Assembly: GCA_030680175.1 (NCBI GenBank)
Contig: JAUXWO010000055.1
Span: 124,001 to 188,000, forward strand
Direction: 5' to 3'
DNA length: 64,000 nucleotides
Source: Vicinamibacterales bacterium
GTDB lineage: Bacteria > Acidobacteriota > Vicinamibacteria > Vicinamibacterales > UBA2999
The notes below the pieces were generated by a model. That model was not told the DNA's origin, ran no database searches, and saw nothing but the letters and a program-made list of their open reading frames with translations. The position numbers were made by a program, and so were the translations under genes. Below are positions 48,315-58,653 of this stretch, in pieces. The number at the start of each line of letters is the position of its first letter. The first letter of the stretch is position 1.

Positions 48315-48854
48315 TTGGCCCTCACTTCCACCATCTACCAGTTCGACATCGACCTCGCCGACCACGATCGCGGGGTCTACGAGCACCTCGACCTGCGCGT
48401 GGCGCGGCACCCCTCGGAATCCGAGGACTACCTCGTCACGCGCGTGCTGGCGTACTGCCTCGAGTACACCGAGGGCATCGCGTTCTCGAAGGGGCTGTCG
48501 AGCCCGGAGGACCCGACGATCGCGGTGCGCGATCTGACAGGCGCGATCCACACATGGGTCGAGATCGGCGCCCCTGACGCGGCGCGCGTGCACAAGGCGG
48601 GCAAGGCCGCCGGGCGTGTGGCCGTCTACACGCACAAGGATCCGGGGCAGATGCTGCGGCTCTGGGCGAACGAGCGGATCCACCGCCTCGACGCGCTGGA
48701 GCTGTACCGCGTCGATCGCGTCTTGCTCGATGGGCTGATCGCCGCGCTCGATCGCCGCGTGGCCTGGTCGATGTCGATCAACGACCGCGAGTTGTACGTC
48801 GCGGTGGGGGACCGCACGATCGAGGGCCGCGTCGCGCGGGTGCCGGTGGGCTGA
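48315..48854 (+). CDS. yaeQ: YaeQ family protein
   Basis: This 179-residue protein starts MALTSTIYQFDIDLADHDRG (TTG codon), matching the usual YaeQ N-terminus MAL.ATIYK. Further matches are YLVTRVLAYCLEYTEGIAFSKG and WVEIGAPDAARVHKAGKAA. The fold resembles a PD-(D/E)xK nuclease, but the role is not established. It was once proposed to suppress rfaH loss in E. coli. The TTG start is preferred because it gives the conserved N-terminus. It stands between the P1 peptidase and a hybrid kinase. Confidence 0.9.
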   Translation: MALTSTIYQFDIDLADHDRGVYEHLDLRVARHPSESEDYLVTRVLAYCLEYTEGIAFSKGLSSPEDPTIAVRDLTGAIHTWVEIGAPDAARVHKAGKAAGRVAVYTHKDPGQMLRLWANERIHRLDALELYRVDRVLLDGLIAALDRRVAWSMSINDRELYVAVGDRTIEGRVARVPVG

Positions 48855-51392: not shown

Positions 51393-53309
51393 ATGAGAGG
51401 CATGTGGCCGCCCATGACCGCCCCGCGACGCGTACTGCTCGCCATCGGGATCTGGCTCGTCCTCGCTGCGCCGGCGTTTGCGCAGGCCGCGGTCGAGTAT
51501 CGCGTGTCGTTTCCCGCGCCCGAGCATCGCTGGATGCAGGTCGAAGTGGCGTTCCGCGACATCCCGGCCGGCGTGCTCGACGTGCGCATGAGCCGGACCT
51601 CGCCCGGGCGCTACGCGCTGCACGAGTTCGCCAAGAACGTGTTCGACGTGGCGGTGACGAACGGCGCCGGCGCCCCGCTCACCCCTGCGCGCCCGAACCT
51701 GCACCAGTGGGCCGTGTCCGGGCACGACGGCACCGTCGTCGTCCGCTACCGCATCTTCGGCGACCGCACGGACGGCACGTATCTGAGCGTGGATGCCGAA
51801 CACGCGCACGTGAACATGCCCGCGTCGCTGATGTGGGCGCGGCAGCTCACGGCGCGGCCGGCGCGCGTCACGTTCGTGCCGCCGCCCGCGCGGCCTGGGC
51901 GCGGCGCGTGGCGCGTGGCCACGCAGCTGTTCCCGACCGGCGATCCGTACACCTTCACCGCGCCAAACCTCGCGTACCTGCTTGACAGCCCGGCCGAGCT
52001 CAGCGACTTCACGCTCCGCACGTTCCGGGTGACGGACGCGCGCGGCGCATCGCCCGAGTTCCGGATTGCCCTCCATCACGACGGCACCGACGCGGAGGCC
52101 GATGCCTATGCACGCGATGTCGAGGCCATCGTGCGCGAGGCGCTGGCCGTGTTCGGCGGCGAGTTCCCGGCCTTCGAGACCGGCACCTACACCTTCATCG
52201 CGGACTACCTGCCGTGGGCCAGCGGCGACGGAATGGAGCACCGCAACAGCACGATCCTGACGAGCGCCGGCGCCCTCCGGAATCCCGCGCAGCGGATCGG
52301 GCTGCTCGGCACCGTCGCGCATGAGTTCGTCCATGCCTGGAACGTCGAGCGCATCCGGCCGCACTCGCTCGAACCCTTCGACTTCGAGGACGCGAGCGTA
52401 TCGGGCGAGCTCTGGTTCGGCGAGGGCTTCACGAGCTACTACGACGACCTGATCCTCCACCGCGCCGGGCTGGCGTCGCTCGACGCGACGCTGGCGAGCT
52501 TCGCGGCCACGATCAACGCGGTGCAGCTCGGGCCGGGGCGGCAGATCCGCAGCGCGGAGGAGATGAGCCAGCTGGCGGCGTTCGTCGACGCCGCGGTCTC
52601 GATCGACCGCACCGCCTGGCCCAATACGTTCATCTCGTACTACACGTGGGGCGCGGCCCTCGGCCTTGGCCTGGATCTCGAACTGCGCCGCCAGTGGAAC
52701 AGCGTCGCGTCGCTCGACACCTTCATGCAGGCGATGTGGGCGGCATTCGGCCGTCCCGGCCAGCAGACCCCCGGGGTGGTGTCGACGCCGTTCACCGTGG
52801 CCGGCCTGATGTCGGAGCTGTCGGAGGCGGGCGGGGGGCGCGCGTTCACGCAGGCGTTCTTCTCGCGGTACGTGCAGGGCCGCGAGGTGATGGACTACGC
52901 GCCATTGCTCGCCCGCGCGGGGCTCGTCATGCGGCCGCGCGCCACGGGCCAGGCGTGGCTGGGCGCCGTCCCGCTCACGTTCACCGGCGGGGCCGGCGCC
53001 CTCGTGAGCGGACTCGTCCCGTTCGACTCGCCGCTCTACCAGGCCGGTGTCGCGTTCGAGGATCGCCTCCTCGCGATCGACGGGATCGAGGTCGCCTCGC
53101 AGGCCGCGCTCGACGAGGCGCTGGGCCGGCTCGCCCCGGGCCGCGCCGTCCCGCTCCGCTTCGTCCGCCGCGGTGGTGAGATCGTCGCGGGCACCCTGGT
53201 GCCGATCGAGGACCCGCGCATCGAGATCGTCACGCTCGAATCAACCGGTGGCGCCCCGTCGCCGGCGCAGCAGCGCTTCCGCGGGGAGTGGCTGGGAACA
53301 CGACAGTAG
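51393..53309 (+). CDS. M61 family peptidase with PDZ domain (copy 1)
   Basis: This 638-residue secreted metallopeptidase has a signal peptide (about residues 8-30) and an N-terminal beta domain. The zinc motif is HEFVHAWN (His310, Glu311, His314), with the third ligand in WFGEGFTSYYDDL. A C-terminal PDZ domain at about 520-610 has VSGLVPFDSPLYQAGV and FEDRLLAIDGIEV. M61 enzymes are glycyl/alanyl aminopeptidase-like. A second, shorter M61 gene lies at 56851. The gene directly follows the Cache kinase and precedes the rhodanese by 11 bases, so the three are likely an operon. Confidence 0.9.
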   Translation: MRGMWPPMTAPRRVLLAIGIWLVLAAPAFAQAAVEYRVSFPAPEHRWMQVEVAFRDIPAGVLDVRMSRTSPGRYALHEFAKNVFDVAVTNGAGAPLTPARPNLHQWAVSGHDGTVVVRYRIFGDRTDGTYLSVDAEHAHVNMPASLMWARQLTARPARVTFVPPPARPGRGAWRVATQLFPTGDPYTFTAPNLAYLLDSPAELSDFTLRTFRVTDARGASPEFRIALHHDGTDAEADAYARDVEAIVREALAVFGGEFPAFETGTYTFIADYLPWASGDGMEHRNSTILTSAGALRNPAQRIGLLGTVAHEFVHAWNVERIRPHSLEPFDFEDASVSGELWFGEGFTSYYDDLILHRAGLASLDATLASFAATINAVQLGPGRQIRSAEEMSQLAAFVDAAVSIDRTAWPNTFISYYTWGAALGLGLDLELRRQWNSVASLDTFMQAMWAAFGRPGQQTPGVVSTPFTVAGLMSELSEAGGGRAFTQAFFSRYVQGREVMDYAPLLARAGLVMRPRATGQAWLGAVPLTFTGGAGALVSGLVPFDSPLYQAGVAFEDRLLAIDGIEVASQAALDEALGRLAPGRAVPLRFVRRGGEIVAGTLVPIEDPRIEIVTLESTGGAPSPAQQRFRGEWLGTRQ

Positions 53310-53320
53310 AAGGAGACGAC

Positions 53321-53743
53321 ATGCCCAGATCCGTGCAACGACTGGCCGTGCTGACCGCGTTCGTGGCGGCAGCCTGGCTGCTGCCGGTGGCCGACGCCTC
53401 GGCGCAGGCCGTGCGCAACGTGCCGCGCGTCAGCGTGGACGAGGTGAAGAAGCTCATCGCCGAGAACAAGGTCCTGCTCGTGGACACGCGCATCGAAGGC
53501 GAGTTCCTGATGGGCCACATCCCCGGCGCCATCAACATCAGCTTCCTCGACGCCGACTGGCGTGCCGAGGAGTTGAAGGGCGAGAAGCGCCAGATCGTCA
53601 CCTACTGTGCTTGACTGAACGAAGCCACGAGCGCCCGTGCGGCGGTCGAGTTCATGAACAAGGGCATTCCGAACGTGACGACGCTCCTCGGCGGCGTGGC
53701 CGCCTGGGTCGAGTCGGGCGGCAGGCTCGTCAGAGGGAAATAG
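53321..53743 (+). CDS. Rhodanese-like protein with one in-frame TGA (possible selenoprotein)
   Basis: A strong ribosome binding site (AAGGAGACGAC) precedes MPRSVQRLAVLTAFVAA, a signal peptide. The rhodanese domain shows VRNVPRVSVDEVKKLIAEN, VLLVDTRIEGEFLMGHIPGA and KRQIVTYCA. Codon 98 (53612-53614) is TGA. The same frame then continues intact: LNEATSARAAVEFMNKG, IPNVTTLLGGVAAWVESGG to a TAG at 53741. Relatives read YCACPNEATSA, so TGA replaces the second cysteine of the active-site loop. Either it encodes selenocysteine or the gene carries a nonsense mutation. The first cysteine (Cys96) is kept. If read through, the product has 140 residues. Confidence 0.75.
53615..53642 (+). promoter_or_regulatory. 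Weak candidate SECIS-like hairpin after the TGA
   Basis: Directly after the TGA, CACG (53626-53629) can pair with CGTG (53636-53639) around loop AGCGCC, extended by GC/GC across a bulge. The loop begins 15 bases after the TGA and has G at its second position. This is close to, but at the edge of, the bacterial SECIS pattern. It could equally be a chance hairpin in GC-rich coding DNA. Confidence 0.25.
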
Positions 53744-53748
53744 GGTGC

Positions 53749-53772
53749 GCCGGACGGGTTACTCCGTCCGGC
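53749..53772. terminator. Bidirectional hairpin terminator
   Basis: A perfect 9-bp inverted repeat, GCCGGACGG and CCGTCCGGC around GTTACT, sits between the convergent rhodanese and NtrC-like genes and includes the stop codon of the latter. It lacks a long T-run. Confidence 0.6.
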
Positions 53773-55126
53773 CCTCGTCCGTCAGGGGGATGCCGAAGCG
53801 TTCGGCCATGCGGTAGAGCGTGCGGCGGTCGATGCCGAGCACCTCGGCCGCCCGCGTGCGGTTGCCGTGGACCTGCTCCAGCACGTGCAGCAGGTAGCGG
53901 CGCTCGAGCTCATCGAGTGAGGGCAGGTCGCCGAAGAGGGTCTGCGGACCCGGCGCAGCCTTGCTCGCCAGCGTCCCCGGCAGGTCCGCCGCCTCGACGC
54001 GCGACCCGCGGCAGAAGACGACCAGCCGCTCGATCGTGTTCTCGAGTTCGCGCACGTTGCCGGGCCACGGATGGCCGGTCAGCGCCTCCATCGCCGCGGG
54101 CGCGATCTCGATCTGGCGTCCCGCCTTCGCGCACGCCGCCTGCAGGAAGCGCTCGACGAGCAGCGGGATGTCCTCGCGCCGCTCACGCAGCGGCGGAAGG
54201 TGGATGATCACCACCCCCAGCCGGTAGAACAGGTCCTGCCGGAACCGGCCGTCCGCCACGGCCTTCTCCATGTCCACGTTCGTCGCGGCCACGATGCGCA
54301 CGTCCACCTGCACGGTGCGCGACCCGCCGACCGGCCGCACCTCGCCTTCCTGCAGGACCCGCAGGAGCTTCACCTGGAGCGCCGGCGACATCTCGCCGAC
54401 CTCGTCGAGGAACACCGTGCCGGTGTGCGCGGCCAGGAAGATGCCCTTGTGGTCGCTCACCGCGCCGGTGAACGACCCCTTCACGTGGCCGAAGAGCTCC
54501 GACTCGAGCAGCGTTTCCGTCAACGCCCCGCAGTTGATGGGCACGTACGCCCGGGCGGCGCGCGTGCTGTGCTCGTGAATCGCGCTGGCGACGAGTTCCT
54601 TGCCCGTGCCGCTCTCGCCGATGATGAGCACCGGCACGTCGGCCGTCGCCGCGTACGCGATCTGCTTGTAGACGCTCGTCATCGCCGGGGTGCGTCCGAG
54701 CAGGCCCGGTGCGATCGTGTCGCGGACGGCGGCCGTGGCCGGGAGCGACGGGGCCTGCTGCAACGCACGCTCGACGAGCTGCTTGATCTCGGTGATGTTG
54801 AAGGGCTTGCTGACGAAGTCGAATGCCCCCTCACGCACGGCCTCGACCGCCTTCTCGAGCTCGCCGAATCCGGTGACGATGATCACCTGCGTGGACGGCG
54901 CGGCGGCGCGGATCTGCCGGAGCACATCGATGCCGTCCAGCCGCGCGTTCAGCTTCAGGTCCGACACGACCAGGTCGTAGGGCTTCGCGCGCGCCCGGTC
55001 GATCGCCATCTCGGGATCGGTCGTCGTCTCGATCTCCCGCCCGGGCCGTGCCAGCAGCTCCTGCATGAAGCGGCACGTCTCGACATCGTCGTCCAGGATG
55101 AGGATGCGGGTGGTGGGTGCGTTCAT
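53759..55126 (-). CDS. NtrC-family sigma-54-dependent response regulator
   Basis: This 455-residue regulator has a receiver domain (1-120) with phospho-acceptor Asp56 in VVSDLKL and KPF near 108. The AAA+ domain has Walker A GESGTGKE (170-177), the sigma-54 contact loop as GSFTGA (217-222, Ser in place of the commoner Ala) and the Walker B region GTVFLDEVGEMSP. A Fis-type helix-turn-helix lies at the end (GNRTRAAEVLGIDRRTLYRM). It should activate sigma-54 promoters when phosphorylated by the HAMP kinase encoded just upstream (ATGA overlap). Flanking M61 genes are possible targets. Confidence 0.93.
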   Translation of the reverse strand: MNAPTTRILILDDDVETCRFMQELLARPGREIETTTDPEMAIDRARAKPYDLVVSDLKLNARLDGIDVLRQIRAAAPSTQVIIVTGFGELEKAVEAVREGAFDFVSKPFNITEIKQLVERALQQAPSLPATAAVRDTIAPGLLGRTPAMTSVYKQIAYAATADVPVLIIGESGTGKELVASAIHEHSTRAARAYVPINCGALTETLLESELFGHVKGSFTGAVSDHKGIFLAAHTGTVFLDEVGEMSPALQVKLLRVLQEGEVRPVGGSRTVQVDVRIVAATNVDMEKAVADGRFRQDLFYRLGVVIIHLPPLRERREDIPLLVERFLQAACAKAGRQIEIAPAAMEALTGHPWPGNVRELENTIERLVVFCRGSRVEAADLPGTLASKAAPGPQTLFGDLPSLDELERRYLLHVLEQVHGNRTRAAEVLGIDRRTLYRMAERFGIPLTDEGRTE

Positions 55127-56709
55127 GGTTCCGTCGTGTCGTCGCCGGCCGCGCCGGCGGCCGGCAGGTCGATGGTGAACGTGGTGCCGCGGCCCACCTC
55201 GCTGGCGACGCTGATGCTACCACCGTGGCTCTGGACGACGTCACGCGCGATGCTCAGCCCGAGCCCGGTGCCGCGGCCCGCCGGCTTGGTGGTGAACCAT
55301 TGCTCGAAGATGCGCGCCAGCACATCGGGTTCGATGCCCAGCCCCGTGTCCTCGATGCTGATGCGGACGATCGCCGGATCCGGCGTCGAGATGCGAATCG
55401 CCAGCCGCCCGCCGGCCGGCATCGCGTGGACGGCGTTGTTGACCATGTTGAGCAGCGCCAGTTCGAGGTTCACGGGGTCGACGAGGACCTCGGTCACCAC
55501 CGCCGGCGCCTCCAGCTCGAGCCGGATGTGCGCGGCCTCCAGGTTCGGCCGCACCGCCTCCGCCACGCGGTCCACCAGCTCCCGCGCCGTCGTCCGGCTG
55601 CGCGGACCCAGCCGGCGCGAGCGGTCGAGCAGCGTGCGCACGGTGGTCGTCACCTTGGCGATCTGCTCCTCGATCACGGCCAGACGGCGTGAGACGTCCG
55701 GATCATCGCCGATCTGCTCCCGCAGCAGCTGGACGTGACCCGAGATCAGATTGAGGGGCGTGCCCACCTGGTGGGCCACGTTGGCGGCCGTCTGTCCGAT
55801 GGACGCCAGCTGCTCCGCTCCGGCCAGCTGCTCGCGGACCGCCAGCAGCCGGTGGTAGGCGTCCACACGCTCCACGTTGCGCCGTTCGATTTCGCCCGTC
55901 GCCTCACGCACCCGCGCCTGGAGCGCGTCGTTGAAGTGCTCCATGTGCTCGAGCATCTGATTGAGGCCGCGCGCCACGTCGGCCAGATCGTCGCCGCCCG
56001 AGACCGGCGCGCGCGCCTGGAGGTCCCCTTCGGCCACGCGATCGACCGTCTCCCGGAGCTGCCGGATCGGGGTGTAGACGATCGGCTTGGCGAGCAGATC
56101 GACGACCACGACCAGGACGAAGATGGCCACAGCCGCGAACCAGAGCATGCTGCCGAGGGCGCGCCGCTGCAGGCCGAGGACGGCGGCCACGTCGGACCTT
56201 ACGATCACGGCGCCGGCCGTGCCGCGATCCGTCTCGAACGGAGCCGCCACGCGAAGGATCGCCTCATTCCTGGCCACGCGCGTCTCGCGATCGCCGATGG
56301 CGCGTGCGCCGAGCTGGAGGCCTTCGTCCGCAGGCGGGAGGCCGGAGGTCGCCAGAACCATCACGCCCTCGCCGCTGCGGGCGATCACGGCGATCCGGTC
56401 CACCTCGCCGGCTGACAGATCGATGTCGCGGATGCGCGCCTCGACGGCCGAGATGGGCAGGGGGTCGCCCATCCCTCGCACCTCGCCGGCGACGAGCTCC
56501 GCCGTGCGGGTGGCCGTGGCTTCGAGCTCCTGGAGCAGAACCTCCTCGGCGGCGCGCACCGACAGCCATCCCGAGACGGCCATCGTCACGGTGACGGTCG
56601 CCACGATGGCGAGGGCGAGGCGAACGCGCAGCGACCCGAACCAGCGCGCCCCGCGTGAGGCGGGCCGCCGGGTAAGGGTGCTGAGAGGGTTCGAGGACAA
56701 CTGGGTCAC
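55123..56709 (-). CDS. HAMP sensor histidine kinase, NtrB-like
   Basis: This 528-residue kinase has TM1 at about 30-50, a periplasmic sensor (about 52-185), TM2 at about 187-208 and HAMP at about 208-262. A coiled coil follows, then HisKA with His313 in ANVAHQVGTPLNLISGH and HATPase with NMVNNAVHAMP and GRGTGLGLSIARDVV. A GTG start at 56709 (VTQLSSNPL) is chosen. The open frame continues farther upstream but would overlap the divergent M61 gene. Its stop overlaps the NtrC-like gene by four bases, so they form a cognate pair. Confidence 0.9.
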   Translation of the reverse strand: MTQLSSNPLSTLTRRPASRGARWFGSLRVRLALAIVATVTVTMAVSGWLSVRAAEEVLLQELEATATRTAELVAGEVRGMGDPLPISAVEARIRDIDLSAGEVDRIAVIARSGEGVMVLATSGLPPADEGLQLGARAIGDRETRVARNEAILRVAAPFETDRGTAGAVIVRSDVAAVLGLQRRALGSMLWFAAVAIFVLVVVVDLLAKPIVYTPIRQLRETVDRVAEGDLQARAPVSGGDDLADVARGLNQMLEHMEHFNDALQARVREATGEIERRNVERVDAYHRLLAVREQLAGAEQLASIGQTAANVAHQVGTPLNLISGHVQLLREQIGDDPDVSRRLAVIEEQIAKVTTTVRTLLDRSRRLGPRSRTTARELVDRVAEAVRPNLEAAHIRLELEAPAVVTEVLVDPVNLELALLNMVNNAVHAMPAGGRLAIRISTPDPAIVRISIEDTGLGIEPDVLARIFEQWFTTKPAGRGTGLGLSIARDVVQSHGGSISVASEVGRGTTFTIDLPAAGAAGDDTTEP

Positions 56710-56850
56710 GGAAGTATATGCGAAGACGTGGGTTAGCCTGCGCCTGCCGCCGGAGACACGCCGACTCGGGTTCGGCGTTCCTCTCCACGGAGCAAGGGCC
56801 GTTCCTGGTCCCGCCTCCCGTCGCGCGGGACCCACGTAAAATACCGGGGC

Positions 56851-58653
56851 ATGAACCGGACCCTTCGCTGCCTCCTGACCGCGTGCTTCACGATGATGAT
56901 GATCGCTGCCACCACGGCGGGCGCCCAGACGCCCGCGCCGATCGCCTACACGATTCGCTTTCCCGCGCCGGCCACGCACTACATGGAGATCGAGGCCGTC
57001 TACCCGACCGGTGGTCGCGCCGAGATCGACCTGTTCATGGCGGTGTGGACGCCCGGGTCGTACCTGGTGCGCGAGTACGCCCGCCATGTGGAGCAGGTCG
57101 TGGCGCGCGGAGCGGCCGGGCAGGCGCTGGCCGTCCGCAAGACGACGAAGAACCGCTGGCGCGTGGCCACCGGGGGCGCGGCGTCGGTGACGGTCCGCTA
57201 CCGCGTCTACGGCCGCGAGATGACGGTGCGCAACAACTGGATCGAGGCCGGGTTCGCGATGCTGAACGGCGCGCCCACGTTCCTGACGCTGGTCGACGAC
57301 GGCCCGCGCGCGCACCGGGTGCGGCTGGAACTGCCGGAGGGGTGGACGACGACCGCCACGGCGCTCACACGCGTGGAGGGCGAGGCGCACAGCTACGTGG
57401 CCGAGGACTTCGACACGCTCGTTGACAGCCCCATCGTCGCGGGCAACCCCGTCATCACGGAGTTCGCGTTCGGCGGCAGGCCCCACTACGTGGTGCACGA
57501 GGGAGACCCCTCGCTCTGGGACACGGCGCGCGCGAACGACGACGTGCGGAAGATCGTGGAGGTGACGCGCGAGATGTTCGGCGAGGTGCCGTATCCGCAC
57601 TACTACTTCCTCAACATGGTGACCGAAGCGGGTGGCGGGCTGGAGCACAAGAACTCCACGCTCCTGATGGCCAACCGGTTCACGACGCGGGCACGGCGGT
57701 CGTACCTGGGCTGGCTCACCCTCGTGAGCCACGAGTACTTTCACGTGTGGAACGTGAAGCGCCTGCGGCCCGTCGCCCTGGGTCCGTTCGATTACGAGCA
57801 CGAGAACTACACCGAGAGCCTGTGGGTGGCGGAGGGTGTCACGTCATACTTCGGCGACCTGCTCGTCAGGCGCGCCGGGCTGTCCACCCGCGGCGAGTAC
57901 CTCGAGGGCCTGTCCACCGAGATCGCGAACCTGCAGAACGCCCCGGGCCGCGCGGTGCAGACGACCGCCGCCTCGTCGTTCGACACCTGGATCAAGCAGT
58001 ACCGCCCCGACGAGAACTCGCCGAACACGGCCATCAGCTACTACACCAGCGGGCAGGTCATCTCGTTCCTGCTGGATGCGAAGATCCGCGCGGCGACCAA
58101 TGGTCAGCGGTCGCTCGACGATGGGATGCGGCTGGCGTATCAGCGGTACTCGGGCCCCACCGGCTATACGCCCGACGAGTTTCACGCGGTGATGTCGGAG
58201 GTCGCCGGCGTGGATCTCGCGCCGTGGTTCGCGCGGGTGCTGACGACCACCGAGGAGTTCGACTACACCGAGGCGCTCCACTGGTATGGCCTGCGCTTCC
58301 GTCCCGCGGAGCCGACGACACGGGCGTGGACGGGCCTCGTGACGCGCAACGATGCCGGCCGGCTGCTCGTCTCCCAGGTGCGGCGCGACACGCCTGGCTA
58401 CGCCGCGGGCCTCAATGTGGACGACGAGATCCTGGCGATCGATGACCTGCGGGTGCGCGCGGACCAGCTGACGAACCGGCTGGAGCAGTACAAGGCCGGG
58501 GATCAGGTCACGCTGCTCGTGGCGCGCCGCGAGCGCCTCATGCGCCTCGTGCTGACCTTCGGCGCCGAGCCCGGCCGCGCCTGGCGTCTCGAACCGGATC
58601 CAGGGGCGACGGAGGAGCAGCGGAAGCGCCTCGCCGCGTGGCTGGGAGACTGA
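56851..58653 (+). CDS. M61 family peptidase with PDZ domain (copy 2)
   Basis: This 600-residue secreted metallopeptidase has a signal peptide (about 1-25). The zinc motif HEYFHVWN (His294, Glu295, His298) lies in LTLVSHEYFHVWNVKRLRP, and the third ligand region is ESLWVAEGVTSYFGDLL. A C-terminal PDZ domain (about 490-570, VSQVRRDTPGYAAGLNVDDE) follows. It is a diverged paralogue of the gene at 51393 rather than a recent duplicate. It is divergent from the NtrB/NtrC-like pair, with 141 bases between starts, and may be under its control. A GATC-rich array starts just after the stop. Confidence 0.92.
   Translation: MNRTLRCLLTACFTMMMIAATTAGAQTPAPIAYTIRFPAPATHYMEIEAVYPTGGRAEIDLFMAVWTPGSYLVREYARHVEQVVARGAAGQALAVRKTTKNRWRVATGGAASVTVRYRVYGREMTVRNNWIEAGFAMLNGAPTFLTLVDDGPRAHRVRLELPEGWTTTATALTRVEGEAHSYVAEDFDTLVDSPIVAGNPVITEFAFGGRPHYVVHEGDPSLWDTARANDDVRKIVEVTREMFGEVPYPHYYFLNMVTEAGGGLEHKNSTLLMANRFTTRARRSYLGWLTLVSHEYFHVWNVKRLRPVALGPFDYEHENYTESLWVAEGVTSYFGDLLVRRAGLSTRGEYLEGLSTEIANLQNAPGRAVQTTAASSFDTWIKQYRPDENSPNTAISYYTSGQVISFLLDAKIRAATNGQRSLDDGMRLAYQRYSGPTGYTPDEFHAVMSEVAGVDLAPWFARVLTTTEEFDYTEALHWYGLRFRPAEPTTRAWTGLVTRNDAGRLLVSQVRRDTPGYAAGLNVDDEILAIDDLRVRADQLTNRLEQYKAGDQVTLLVARRERLMRLVLTFGAEPGRAWRLEPDPGATEEQRKRLAAWLGD

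Follow-up and report, generated by a model that had tools for sequence, protein, structure and literature searches.

A probably exported rhodanese with an in-frame UGA beside its active-site cysteine, predicted to be a selenoprotein with relatives across its phylum

We analyzed a 64,000-nt stretch of a Vicinamibacterales bacterium genome (the window), in which a single-domain rhodanese gene lies at positions 53321-53743 of the plus strand and encodes 140 amino acids when its sole in-frame TGA (codon 98, 53612-53614) is read as selenocysteine (Sec). Read directly from the sequence, the gene begins at an ATG (53321-53323), carries the ribosome binding site AAGGAG (53310-53315) 5 nt upstream, and ends at a natural TAG stop (53741-53743), all on the plus strand. 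The AAGGAG abuts the 3' side of the TAG that closes the gene directly upstream, which encodes an M61 family glycyl aminopeptidase with a PDZ domain (51393-53309, plus strand; PF17899 and PF05299) and is probably co-transcribed with the rhodanese. The M61 gene is found directly 5' of the rhodanese in all f1-family relatives examined, in Sec and Cys forms alike, and this adjacency suggests co-expression without implying a shared function. Another M61 glycyl aminopeptidase gene with a PDZ domain is present at 56851-58653, which places two such genes within 8 kb. On the 3' side, the rhodanese unit is bounded by a convergent gene for an NtrC-type sigma-54 response regulator (53759-55126, minus strand; PF00158 and PF00072), which lies outside the unit. 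Between the two convergent genes there is an inverted repeat (GCCGGACGG...CCGTCCGGC, window positions 53747-53772) without a run of T, a possible shared terminator.

The read-through product matches PF00581 in Pfam at 62.9 bits (cut-off, 22.2) over residues 38-131, a span that crosses the TGA. Residues 1 to approximately 29 (...ADASAQA; 53321-53407, plus strand) form a probable Sec-type signal peptide, with a charged N-terminus, a hydrophobic core, and A-x-A sites, features that we read directly from the sequence. Most homologues likewise have a hydrophobic leader at the N-terminus, and the rhodanese is probably exported. An AlphaFold model built from a 21-sequence alignment, with Sec modeled as Cys, adopts a rhodanese fold with a mean pLDDT of 89.7, in which a central strand (residues 91-95, ending at Tyr95) is followed by the active-site loop (96-101) and a helix (102-113). 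The best Foldseek matches of this model are rhodaneses (E of 1e-9 to 3tp9), and Cys96 aligns with the catalytic loop cysteine of the solved structures. This residue, encoded by TGT (53606-53608, plus strand), sits right behind the strand at the position of the canonical rhodanese nucleophile and opens the CxU part of the motif YCAU (residues 95-98), while Ala97 and residue 98 lie where the loop is extended by about two residues. Classical single-domain rhodaneses (GlpE, 1gmx; BH2092, 3nhv; the rhodanese domain of 3tp9) share the fold and the catalytic Cys past the central strand, but the window protein differs from them in its loop, longer by about two residues, in its additional Cys/Sec at +2, and in its probable export.

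A sequence-only reading of the locus had proposed that a single TGA interrupts an otherwise intact rhodanese at a position where Cys would be expected after Tyr-Cys-Ala. The ATG, AAGGAG, TAG, and uninterrupted PF00581 match agree with the first half of this proposal, and comparison with homologues bears out the second. A close homologue (E below 1e-20) is present in 21 of the 162 genomes from the same order; codon 98 is TGA in 10 of these (from 10 genera, including that of the window) and Cys in 11. A wider search through 396 genomes of the phylum added further copies to reach 43 examined, among which codon 98 is TGA in 27, Cys in 16, and nothing else. Cys96 is invariant in all 43, as are G124, G125, and W129 downstream of the TGA, and the Sec proteins of the order share on average just 44% identity. 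The initial reading had also counted against itself that Leu, and not Pro, follows the TGA, a doubt that falls away since codon 99 is variable (L, V, P, H, R, S, A, T, or Q among homologues) and Leu there is unremarkable. In one genome (G200, locus L081, minus strand), rhodanese genes at 1036-1356 and 1537-1914 are arranged in tandem, one with a TGA and one without.

Since TGA is one base away from the Cys codons TGC and TGT, it could in principle mark a nonsense mutation or a base-call error, so that the gene would be a pseudogene in the first case and a misread but intact Cys gene in the second. However, 26 further copies, divergent and drawn from separate assemblies, have the same TGA, the window copy has no damage besides the TGA, and the constraint on the downstream hairpin described below is limited to TGA copies. 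We consider this explanation vanishingly improbable and reject both of its forms, which the independent TGA copies already refute.

When the Sec/Cys state was placed on a maximum-likelihood tree, at least five changes were needed among the 43 copies. Within the window's own family, TGA is present in the window and in one other genome (G100), and Cys is present in three other genera. Given the spread of Sec across the deeper branches, this pattern fits repeated loss of Sec to Cys. The selB gene is present in all nine of the other TGA genomes of the order, and a selC match was found in seven of the nine, the two without one being less complete assemblies (87 and 90%). Since selB and selC are also present in most of the Cys genomes, the Cys forms are not explained by loss of the machinery.

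Downstream of the TGA, we identified a candidate SECIS hairpin (53628-53648, plus strand; arms 53628-53635 and 53641-53648) from the minimum-energy fold, synonymous constraint, and pair counts over 27 sequences. The hairpin begins 13 to 15 nt past the UGA and presents an apical loop of CGUGC (53636-53640) with GU at 53637-53638. Against it, the window stem contains one G.G mismatch (53631/53645), below which the stem is lengthened by A-U, G-C, and C-G pairs, and its folding energy as a single sequence does not stand out (z = -0.52). The lack of distinction by energy alone explains why the hairpin had at first been judged only a marginal SECIS, a judgment that the comparative data do not uphold. 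Codons 103-108 (ACGAGCGCCCGTGCGGCG), which encode T-S-A-R/G-A-A in the order's 10 Sec copies, use identical synonymous codons 96% of the time in these copies (245 of 254 same-residue pairs), compared to a median of 58% elsewhere, and rank highest of 85 six-codon windows. Codon shuffling within genes (1,000 trials) gave a mean of 97 such pairs and a maximum of 149. In the Cys copies, on the other hand, the same codons reach 46%, near the lowest of all windows.

The constrained bases pair as AGCGCC-[C/G]GUGC-GGCGCU, and the apical-loop GU is invariant in all 27 Sec copies. Across these copies, standard pairs fill 90.5% of the stem-pair cells, compared to 29-49% when the partner strand is slid, and three stem pairs show changes on both sides, C-G to U-A among them. 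The high conservation of the sequence leaves only modest covariation, and pair counts alone would be modest evidence, since the stretch also encodes protein and the shuffle controls take no account of the tree. What argues strongly for a recoding signal is the synonymous constraint confined to TGA copies and not the pair counts. No family was matched in an Rfam scan of the region; the hairpin is so short and variable that it may simply be absent from Rfam. In E. coli fdhF and other formate dehydrogenase genes, the SECIS is a stem-loop a short way past the UGA that carries GU in its small apical loop. The window hairpin is likewise near the UGA and has an apical GU, but it differs in its CGUGC loop and its one stem mismatch.

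The sequence-only reading had called for a search for selA, selB, selC, and selD and held that absence of selB or selC would speak against it. The genome assembly (5.0 Mb over 143 contigs; completeness 100%, contamination 2%) contains all four, each above its curated cut-off. The match to selB scores 321 bits (cut-off, 242) together with its neighbors in the frame, and the frame is full length and holds both EF-Tu-like and SelB winged-helix domains. The selC match scores 64.8 bits (cut-off, 47) and has the anticodon TCA, while selA and selD score 517 and 272.7 bits, respectively. A point against the selenoprotein reading is that selB sits on an 8.8-kb contig (C92) of a multi-contig assembly.

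An in-frame TGA that is read through could also reflect reassignment of TGA to an amino acid across the genome, or general suppression. Against this, TGA ends real neighboring genes in the window (48315-48854, 55123-57801, and 56851-58653), and rnr and prfC, which lie beside selB and were named from their sequence, likewise end in TGA; moreover, the TCA anticodon that was found belongs to tRNA-Sec. TGA is therefore an ordinary stop in this genome, and the recoding would be local and programmed with the code unchanged. We reject reassignment as an exceedingly improbable reading.

The genome also contains a formate-dehydrogenase-like molybdopterin oxidoreductase gene with an in-frame TGA (CNRT-U-HAPSVAGL; positions 1834-1836 of locus L094, minus strand; contig C62 of the window's genome, G000, at about 84 kb). 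Downstream of this TGA lies the hairpin CGUCGCC-GGUCU-GGCGACG, whose loop, GGUCU, is also found in several of the rhodanese copies. This gene is another likely selenoprotein of the same genome. Searching the genome with a covariance model of the hairpin revealed no further convincing selenoprotein, as none of the weaker matches had a fitting TGA within a plausible gene whose frame stays open both before and after it, and a single-protein search of the genome contigs returned only remote, ordinary rhodaneses.

We next compared the window protein with described selenoprotein families. A review from 2026 lists five forms of rhodanese selenoprotein, of which form 3 is NF041203, with a CxU motif (PMC13188914, Table 1). 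NF041203 (rhodanese_LYCAU, "rhodanese-like domain-containing protein form 3") is the family that the window protein matches best, and all 43 homologues match it as well; it shares with the window protein the CxU motif, its position in the active-site loop, and the single-domain size. However, the window protein scores 68.6 bits, below the curated cut-off of 115 bits, which is passed in only one of the 396 sampled genomes of the phylum. Most of the matches at 75-110 bits in these genomes have exactly one TGA, and the curated threshold seems to be set too high for this phylum. These scores place the branch outside the family as curated, as a relative of a predicted kind and not a filed member, and our literature search found no paper describing this rhodanese branch. 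Forms 1, 2, and 4 (PF00581; motifs UxxS and UxxG) and TsoB (NF045694), a DsbD-like fusion with two Sec residues, also combine a rhodanese domain with Sec, but their listed motifs begin at Sec and name no Cys at -2, unlike the CxU of the window protein (PMC13188914).

An apparent stop and its recoding signal, kept in 27 copies across the phylum, point to a selenocysteine two residues past the active-site Cys. The UGA/Cys interchange, the constrained hairpin, and the machinery are all observed in the sequences, and from them we infer that the gene almost certainly encodes a selenoprotein in which UGA 98 specifies Sec, in agreement with the candidate status that the sequence-only reading had given it. 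The fuller account, which we regard as very probable, is of an exported single-domain rhodanese whose UGA 98 would be decoded by SelB and tRNA-Sec under the direction of the downstream SECIS hairpin. For its CxU pair, a role in persulfide/thiol redox is the best supported.

For the reaction itself, we suggest that Cys96 would take up sulfane sulfur to form a persulfide, after which Sec98 would attack Cys96-S-SH, freeing sulfide and leaving a Cys-Se selenylsulfide to be re-reduced by a thiol donor. Alternatively, the CxU pair may act as a more general thiol/persulfide redox couple. We put the chances that the pair performs persulfide-reductase or redox chemistry of this kind at about even. The main rival is a pure sulfur-transfer role, in which the Sec codon is real but the protein is a sulfurtransferase or chalcogen carrier that supplies an acceptor with sulfane sulfur or selenium. 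Both the rhodanese fold and the retained canonical Cys are compatible with a carrier, and rhodanese domains act as sulfur carriers in many systems. On the other hand, a likely exported protein would be remote from the cytoplasmic sulfur-carrier pathways, and a second chalcogen residue at +2 is typical of redox proteins (CxC and CxU), so that we view a carrier as possible but rather unlikely. Under either the persulfide-resolving chemistry or the more general redox couple, the window protein would be the selenium counterpart of the Cys-x-Cys rhodaneses found in its relatives.

Ordinary annotation would end this rhodanese at residue 97. The gene is found repeatedly across the phylum, still accompanied by its recoding signal, so a fair number of selenoproteins there have probably been mis-annotated. 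The window rhodanese and its relatives extend an already-predicted kind of selenoprotein. More tentatively, and with the balance of our judgment somewhat against it, the exported CxU rhodaneses may form their own family of selenium-dependent persulfide reductases that is widespread in the phylum and has largely escaped notice, since annotated genes end at the UGA and the NCBI cut-off is too high. With at least five changes between Sec and Cys in 43 copies, these genes offer a useful case for asking why lineages keep selenium or swap it for sulfur.
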